A DNA stretch of 64,000 bases from Silvibacterium dinghuense (GTDB taxonomy: Bacteria; Acidobacteriota; Terriglobia; Terriglobales; Acidobacteriaceae): positions 1,074,784 to 1,138,783 of the forward strand of contig NZ_SDMK01000002.1 in NCBI RefSeq assembly GCF_004123295.1. The letters are read 5' to 3'. Under the pieces are notes generated by a model that made no database searches, was not told the DNA's origin, and saw only the letters and a list, made by a program, of their open reading frames with translations. This document shows, one piece after another, positions 52,527 through 54,177 of this stretch. The position numbers and the translations under genes were made by a program. Positions within the stretch are counted from its first letter, which is position 1, and each line of letters starts with the position of its first letter.

Positions 52527-52623
52527 GCAGTCCTCACGTTATACTTTCAATTCCGGAGTGACACTATTCATCCGTGGAAAACTGTCCTCTGTCAACAGGC
52601 GAATGGCCAATATTCCCATGCAC

Positions 52624-52661
52624 TTGCGAAGCATTTGACCCACCTGCCAAATGCTTCGTAA
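52624..52661. repeat. 14-bp inverted repeat upstream of tRNA-Met
   Basis: TTGCGAAGCATTTG (52624-52637) pairs with CAAATGCTTCGTAA (52648-52661) over a ten-base loop; one pair is a G-T wobble. It ends 30 bases before the tRNA. It may be an operator, a processing hairpin, or a terminator-like element in the leader. Confidence 0.6.
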
Positions 52662-52691
52662 AATGAAGTGTCAACACGACATCAGCAGTTT

Positions 52692-52768
52692 GGCGGCGTA
52701 GCTCAGATGGTTAGAGCGACGGACTCATAACCCGTAGGTCGATGGTTCGATTCCATCCGCCGCCACCA
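52692..52768 (+). tRNA. tRNA-Met (CAT anticodon)
   Basis: A 77-base cloverleaf with encoded CCA. The acceptor GGCGGCG pairs with CGCCGCC. D arm GCTC...GAGC, anticodon stem around CTCATAA (anticodon CAT), variable loop and T-loop GGTTCGATTCC are all recognisable. Pairing of the first acceptor base is normal, so it reads as elongator Met (a lysidine-modified Ile tRNA cannot be excluded from sequence alone). A near-perfect inverted copy of its anticodon arm lies about 100 bases downstream. Confidence 0.92.
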
Positions 52769-52841
52769 GTGACTCCTCACCAAAAACTGAAGCATACAAA
52801 GGGCGCACAGCCGCAAGGAGCAGTCCGGCGTGCTGCTGAGT

Positions 52842-52870
52842 TCGACCTACGGGTATGAGCCCGTCGCTCT
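52842..52870 (-). repeat. Inverted near-copy of the tRNA-Met anticodon arm
   Basis: The minus strand here matches 52713-52742 of the tRNA at 28 of 30 positions: one substitution and one missing A in the anticodon loop. On the minus strand the preceding bases (to about 52889) also resemble a tRNA 5' half (GGTGGTGCAGC against GGCGGCGTAGC), so it may be a decayed tRNA gene in opposite orientation. If the tRNA transcript reads through, the two copies could pair into a long duplex. Confidence 0.75.
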
Positions 52871-52953
52871 TTCCCGTTGCTGCACCACCCTCTCTGCGAC
52901 AGGCTGATTCCGTTGGAGTATCATCGGATGCAACGGACCTCTGTATTCAGCCC

Positions 52954-54177
52954 ATGTCGAAAGCATTTAAACGCTCCGTCCTCGCCGTCTCCGTCGCTCT
53001 TGTCGCCATCGTCTTCCTGGGCGGTTTTCTTACAGGAGGCGTAAACGCCGGCTCGCAAGCCGATGGCGTTTATCGCCAGATGGGCGTCTATGAAGAAGTT
53101 CTGCACAAGATCCAGAGCGACTACGTCACGGAGCCTAGCATCAATGACGTGACGACCGGGGCCCTCCATGGCCTTCTGGAATCGCTCGATGCAGACTCCA
53201 GTTATCTGACCCCCGCCGAATACAGCGCCTATAAGGCGCATGCCAACGAAGAAACGGCACAGGTAGGCCTGCTGGTCTCGAAGCGCTACGGATATGCCAC
53301 CGTCGTTGCCGTGATCCCCGGCAGCCCGGCCGATAAGGAAGAGCACATCATGGACGGCGACCTGCTTGAGGCTATCGGCGGCAAGTCTACGAGCGATATG
53401 TCTCTCGCCATGATCCGCCTCAGCCTCGAAGGCAAGCCGGGAACCGATGTGACCTTCTCCATCGTGCGTCCAGGCAAGCCGGAACCGCAGAAGATCACGT
53501 TGACACGCACCAACATCACCGCTCCTCCGCTTGCCGAGCAGCAATACGAGAACTCCTCGATCCTCTATCTCAAGCCGGGAACGCTCAGCAAAGACCGCGT
53601 CAATGAGATCGAAGCGAAGCTGAAGGCCATGCCGAAGAATGGCAACAAGAAAGTGCTGCTCGACCTGCGCGATGTCGTCGAAGGCGATTCCGATCAGGCG
53701 ATCCGGCTGGCAAACGCGTTCCTGAAGTCCGGCAATATCGCCTCCCTCTCTGGCCAGAAGTTCTCGAAGCAGACCTTCAACGCCGATCCGGAAAAGTTCA
53801 TCACCGACGCGCCGCTGGTTATCCTCATCAATCACGGCACCGCCGGCCCGGCCGAGATCGTCGCCGCCGCCATTCTCGATAACAAGCGTGGCGACCTCGT
53901 TGGAGACCGCAGCTTCGGCGAAGGCGCCATCCAGAAGACCATCGAGATACCTGACGGTTCGGCTGTCATTCTCTCGGTAGCCAAATACGATTCGCCCTCG
54001 GGCAAGGCGATTCAGGACACCGCGGTCACGCCGAACATCATCGTGACGGAAAGCATCGATCAGTACCTCGCCGAGGAGAGCCTTGACGAGTCTGAGCAGC
54101 CCACAGAGCGAGTGCAGCCAACCACCGATGACCAGCTCACGCGGGCTCTTGACGTTCTGAAGCAAAAGGCCGCCTAA
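52954..54177 (+). CDS. S41 (CtpA-like) peptidase homologue without catalytic dyad
   Basis: About 407 residues from ATG 52954 (MSKAFKRSVLAVSVAL); the frame is open to 52855, but the upstream part overlaps the tRNA-like repeat. Membrane anchor at about 8-30. N-terminal helices 40-98 include LLESLDADSSYLTPAEY; PDZ domain at about 103-175 (VVAVIPGSPADK...DGDLLEAIGG); the S41 core follows. Where E. coli Prc has the Ser in FSASASEI and the Lys in FGKGTVQ, this protein has Gly298 in HGTAGPAEI and Glu323 in FGEGAIQ; Asp309 is kept. Both catalytic groups are therefore missing. The fold is intact, suggesting a non-proteolytic, perhaps scaffold or regulatory, role. Confidence 0.85.
   Translation: MSKAFKRSVLAVSVALVAIVFLGGFLTGGVNAGSQADGVYRQMGVYEEVLHKIQSDYVTEPSINDVTTGALHGLLESLDADSSYLTPAEYSAYKAHANEETAQVGLLVSKRYGYATVVAVIPGSPADKEEHIMDGDLLEAIGGKSTSDMSLAMIRLSLEGKPGTDVTFSIVRPGKPEPQKITLTRTNITAPPLAEQQYENSSILYLKPGTLSKDRVNEIEAKLKAMPKNGNKKVLLDLRDVVEGDSDQAIRLANAFLKSGNIASLSGQKFSKQTFNADPEKFITDAPLVILINHGTAGPAEIVAAAILDNKRGDLVGDRSFGEGAIQKTIEIPDGSAVILSVAKYDSPSGKAIQDTAVTPNIIVTESIDQYLAEESLDESEQPTERVQPTTDDQLTRALDVLKQKAA

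Follow-up and report, generated by a model that had tools for sequence, protein, structure and literature searches.

Why does a tRNA gene have an inverted, nearly perfect copy of its own anticodon arm next to it, and is that copy a working element or a scar? The question is raised by a locus of Silvibacterium dinghuense within a stretch of 64,000 nucleotides that was analyzed as a whole (hereafter, the window). A tRNA-Met gene (CAT anticodon, 52692–52768, plus strand), identified with ARAGORN, is followed on the same strand by a gene for an S41 peptidase with a PDZ domain (52954–54177). The latter was assigned on the basis of Pfam matches (Peptidase_S41 and PDZ), open reading frames of relatives and tblastn; its product is presumably CtpA/CtpB-like and its start codon (MSK.FKR) is common to relatives. 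Each gene is preceded by a promoter-like site on the plus strand, TTGACC-18-TAAAAT at 52635–52664 for the tRNA gene and GCGACA-17-TATCAT at 52896–52924 for the S41 gene, both being products of a consensus scan rather than mapped transcripts. A consensus scan of 52530–53000 revealed no terminator-like site. The inverted copy, a hairpin on the minus strand at 52842–52870 that was delineated by alignment and shuffles, lies upstream of the S41 promoter-like site.

The initial annotation of this locus, made from the sequence alone, had reported that 28 of 30 positions agree between the copy and the anticodon arm, the differences being a substitution and a missing base. Alignment bears this out: the 29 bases of 52842–52870 (minus strand) pair with 52713–52742 (plus strand), a source segment also recovered by the inverted-repeat search, in a single 30-column match (93.3% identity, 42.8 bits). 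None of 2000 dinucleotide shuffles of the 3-kb flank reached that score, the best value on either strand being 28.3 bits. The inverted-repeat search splits the same pair into arms of 20 nt (90%) and 13 nt (100%). The source is confined to tRNA positions 22–51, that is, the anticodon arm and its shoulders. Compared with the tRNA, the copy has A32 replaced by G and lacks one A of the AA at 38–39. It forms a hairpin with a perfect 5-bp stem (52849–52853/52860–52864), and it is separated from the tRNA end by 73 nt without any gene and from the source arm by 99 nt. Beyond its ends, the match to the remaining tRNA is at chance level, as 3202 of 5000 shuffles were as good over 25 nt on one side and 4526 of 5000 over 30 nt on the other. 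The resemblance to a tRNA 5′ half that had also been noted on the minus strand, as far as 52889, is the first of these two matches and is no better than chance. The copy itself is a genuine and unusual sequence feature.

The copy has no counterpart among the other tRNAs surveyed in this genome, for which the Rfam model RF00005 gives 46 tRNAs and ARAGORN 47 distinct tRNA sequences in the surrounding loci. We scanned the flanks of these 47 sequences up to 1.5 kb on each side (for ten of them the flank was clearly shorter on at least one side) and found an inverted near-copy outside its own tRNA, at 26 bits or more, for one, the tRNA-Met of the window. Three other inverted matches (17, 17 and 14 nt) turned out to be palindromes inside the tRNAs themselves. 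The genome has three CAT tRNAs, and the other two (L076 and L082) are clearly different genes from that of the window. Judging by the features that separate elongator, initiator and Ile2 tRNAs, we take the window's tRNA-Met to be the elongator and apparently the sole one in the genome. Another CAT tRNA, probably tRNA-Ile2, is host to an island of approximately 21.9 kb (L129:13581–13631 to L130:15463–15502; C1:2303581–2325502). The ends of this island carry the 5′ part (positions 1–39) and the 3′ part (22–73) of the host tRNA, with a complete replacement tRNA just inside. Besides a tyrosine integrase, the island has among its genes matches to Hachiman HamA/HamB, to a type III restriction enzyme and to the PADLOC candidates PDC-M21 and PDC-S05. 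At yet another locus of the genome (L131, C1:1970984–1974057), the 3′ part of a tRNA-Pro (GGG) together with its trailer is duplicated in tandem downstream (0 of 1000 shuffles), and extra bases interrupt the relic.

We then looked at relatives. The copy core (24 nt including the missing base, up to two mismatches) was found in 1 of 398 genomes of the family, this one, and thus in one of nine in the genus. Among named relatives, the closest found was Silvibacterium bohemicum S15, the S41 protein of which is 85% identical by tblastn, a comparison that may omit records very near the window's own. An intact tRNA followed by S41 occurs in S. bohemicum and in two further genomes (G005 and G008), so the tRNA–S41 order is older than the copy. 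In another two (G003 and G006) the tRNA is followed by genes other than S41. Across 22 related loci, a tRNA-Met within 3 kb upstream of S41 was full in six and partial in one, and none was found in 15. In G002 (L060:5561–5619, contig C35) the 3′ part of tRNA-Met alone stands upstream of S41, with unrelated DNA, as judged by eye, in place of the 5′ part; over the 18 kb analyzed, ARAGORN detected no tRNA. A 21-nt version of the copy core had no match in viral contigs. Nine viral contigs with the intact-type arm were uninformative, all nine matches being inside a tRNA-Met gene.

We compared 69 distinct tRNA-Met contexts having at least 200 nt downstream each. An inverted copy scoring above all 100 shuffles was present in two of them, the window and G211, and a direct copy in five (G211, S. 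bohemicum, G113, a complete second tRNA and one marginal case); since the set is not random and genomes with more than one match were chosen into it, no rate can be derived from these counts. Likewise, the window and G211 have the sole inverted copies at 30 bits or more among 164 contexts of all tRNA types, a non-random set drawn from the fetched loci with viral ones excluded, which also gives no rate. The direct duplicates take several forms. G113 (L217, C16) has two tandem copies of tRNA-Met positions 26–77 plus trailer with a period of about 157 nt (0 of 1000 shuffles), and G242 (L216, C29:275–571) has two complete, slightly different tRNA-Met genes in tandem, 220 nt apart.

Two further tRNA-Met fragments lie inside protein-coding genes, as seen from Pfam searches of eight chosen open reading frames near tRNA fragments. 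In G105 (L210:2666–2699, C3), 34 nt in the variable part of an rsmE-like gene are antisense to tRNA-Met positions 16–49 (97% identical to the window's tRNA). We rejected the idea that this segment is a clean insertion, because it aligns with a similar, less matching stretch in the gene of the nearest relative. In G136 (L214:2742–2775, C8), 34 nt at the end of a tilS-like gene are antisense to positions 17–50 (91%), and this stretch is absent from the four relatives compared.

The most informative relative is G211 (locus L149), a member of another genus of the family. Here two decayed copies, the first recognized by eye, stand between tRNA-Met and S41 (62% identical). The spacer is tandemly repeated (0 of 1000 shuffles reach the score). 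The second decayed copy, at +257, is a direct relic of tRNA positions 13–61 in which the anticodon arm is inverted in place: the arm-inverted alignment scores 75 versus 55 for the direct one and runs without a mismatch across positions 28–61. Because the arm is itself a palindrome, inverted stretches from as short as 32–40 to as long as 22–49 give equal scores.

At +105 from the intact tRNA, S. bohemicum has a direct copy of positions 38–77 (90%), and just before this copy lies a perfect 7-bp palindrome, CGACGGG-TTTTCT-CCCGTCG. The comparison of this spacer with that of the window depends on how it is made. In local alignment 5 of 2000 and 2 of 1000 shuffles were as good, and in global alignment the score was reached in 43 of 2000; restricted to the stretch that precedes the copy the figure was 422 of 2000, and with the copy masked it was 116 of 2000. 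The palindrome thus underlies much of the similarity between the two spacers. Among six spacer pairs that include the window, the S. bohemicum pair alone stands out, and among 15 pairs without the window two lie at 14 and 30 of 1000 shuffles. The stretch before the direct relic of S. bohemicum matches an inverted tRNA piece at a level reached by 28 of 2000 and 21 of 400 shuffles, which is no more than suggestive. As an ancestral state, the spacer of S. bohemicum, the closest relative, is too diverged from that of the window.

We also searched the window for a direct relic. A stretch at 52887–52910 (plus strand) is a possible, weak candidate for a decayed 3′ half of a direct tRNA copy, found through alignment to the S. 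bohemicum relic alone; its score was matched in 41 of 2000 shuffles against that relic, 1574 of 2000 against the window's own tRNA and 496 of 2000 against the tRNA of G005. A model in which a direct relic flanks the inverted arm was not significant, as 66 of 400 flank shuffles match the arm-inverted model. The parts of such a relic, when tested apart, did no better (926, 3243 and 3482 of 5000 shuffles as good).

Based on these comparisons, we consider it probable that the copy is a mutational relic, produced by a template-switch (quasipalindrome) inversion or duplication of the tRNA arm, perhaps on top of an older relic. On this reading, a strand growing during DNA replication would have jumped to the neighboring tRNA-Met gene, or to a tandem relic of that gene, using the palindromic anticodon stem-loop there as template for some 30 nt of reverse complement before returning. 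The target may have been a tRNA relic, already degenerate, in the spacer that separates the tRNA gene from the S41 promoter; comparable relics remain in S. bohemicum and G211. We infer that the process that acted in G211 also made the copy in the window and, likewise, that a relic or the intact gene was its substrate.

Several properties of the copy are those of a quasipalindrome template switch. It is a short reverse-complement segment near its source, with sharp ends and an inverted loop, and its stem is more complementary than that of the source (5 bp versus 4 bp). Perfected stems are not confined to the window: the S. bohemicum palindrome has seven pairs and the G211 relic nine, versus four in each of three intact tRNA arms, and one further G211 relic stem remains at four. 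In the window it is the sole substitution, A32 to G, that completes the stem. A G at position 32 is also seen in another CAT tRNA of the genome (L082) and in the G136 fragment, and therefore the substitution could come from another source. The locus differs from the known process in having a tRNA arm as the palindrome and in the 99-nt gap between source and copy, which is long for this mechanism. According to one report, template switching between the arms of an imperfect inverted repeat homogenizes the arms and can invert the spacer (PMC8604942), and another describes loop inversion via template switching in bacterial sequences (PMC8794818). The perfected stems and this literature together are the reason that we read the copy as a template-switch product. 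In G113, in G211 and at the tRNA-Pro of the genome under study, the 3′ part of a tRNA and its trailer are duplicated in tandem, and these duplications share with the copy in the window the site just downstream of a tRNA. They have periods of approximately 155–170 nt, whereas the window shows the inverted arm alone and a direct copy is not confidently recognizable.

Of the other explanations, the one that fares best, though still unlikely, is that the copy is an att-like arm left by an integrative element that used the tRNA and was later mostly deleted. Such elements are present in the family. In G052 (L207 and L208, C11) the intact tRNA-Met has a counterpart approximately 40 kb away, a fragment of positions 20–77 that adjoins a Phage_integrase gene, and in the genome under study a different CAT tRNA is split by the integrase-bearing island described above. 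The case of G002, where S41 is preceded by just a 3′ remnant of the tRNA, points in the same direction. The 3′ half at +105 in S. bohemicum is shaped like a displaced attachment half; the tandem test of its spacer gave no signal (604 of 1000 shuffles), and therefore that relic may be such a half rather than a tandem duplicate. As in islands of the Islander type, the window has a tRNA fragment beside a tRNA, and the anticodon arm is among the usual crossover regions. However, published islands are recognized by a terminal tRNA fragment that keeps the orientation of the tRNA and lies at least 2 kb from it, the integrase being located between the two (PMC4383910). The fragment in the window is internal (22–51), inverted and 73 nt away, with neither a gene, an integrase nor other element DNA in between, and its core was seen in no viral contig. 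We therefore prefer template switching to integration as the origin of the copy.

Less probable still is the duplication of an entire second tRNA gene, opposite in orientation and since decayed. The initial annotation had offered a decaying second tRNA gene as one of its two readings, and one part of it holds. Relics of duplicated tRNAs do occur downstream of tRNAs in the family, and the restriction of the copy core to a single genome among 398 favors a decayed duplication over a conserved element, which is how the proposed conservation check came out. The opposite orientation does not hold. Inverted D, T and acceptor arms are not detectable, and a gene decaying along its entire length would not keep one arm 93% identical while everything outside positions 22–51 falls to chance. 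Moreover, the relics in relatives run direct, and the sole inverted arm among them, that of G211, sits in a direct frame.

The second reading of the initial annotation was a functional anti-anticodon element, in which the copy, when transcribed by read-through, base-pairs with the tRNA arm and thereby links downstream expression to tRNA processing. Structure prediction is compatible with the pairing itself. The duplex of arm and copy is predicted at −51.8 kcal/mol. For a transcript extending to 52895, the predicted fold is −94.2 kcal/mol when unconstrained versus −72.4 kcal/mol with the cloverleaf kept (a difference of 21.8 kcal/mol), and in the unconstrained fold 44 tRNA positions pair outside the tRNA. 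The region 52660–52960 folds with z = −5.97, and the scan for terminator-like sites mentioned above would leave room for read-through. Control of S41 is a different matter. The copy had been placed in the leader of the S41-like gene, but it lies upstream of the predicted promoter, and this promoter is not peculiar to the locus: a TAT[CGT]AT hexamer stands 23–54 nt upstream of the S41 start in 20 of 22 related loci (29 nt in the window), including relatives without the copy. In addition, the tRNA is transcribed before the copy, and pairing would disable what appears to be the sole elongator tRNA-Met. With the copy neither conserved nor in the predicted S41 leader, we regard this reading as highly improbable. 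If the copy is transcribed, the predicted pairing is more likely a cost than a means of control, because the tRNA-Met appears to be the only elongator of the genome. A lineage-specific variant, a cis-acting anti-tRNA, is just as improbable: a read-through trailer would capture the anticodon arm, and failed termination or slow 3′ processing would destroy that tRNA molecule, thereby linking the supply of tRNA-Met to S41 transcription.

A search of the literature (titles and abstract openings) returned no bacterial case of a tRNA flanked by an inverted copy of its anticodon arm. Most likely, the feature is best explained by a known mutational process, without sign of a working regulator. The inverted arm occurs at the same tRNA–S41 locus in two lineages of one family, and in one of these it still sits within a direct relic. 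Transfer RNA genes with palindromic anticodon arms and tandem-duplicating trailers may thus seed adjacent inverted repeats. Such scars could pass for regulators or for att sites and, if the copy were expressed, it would constitute a self-targeting antisense to an essential tRNA.
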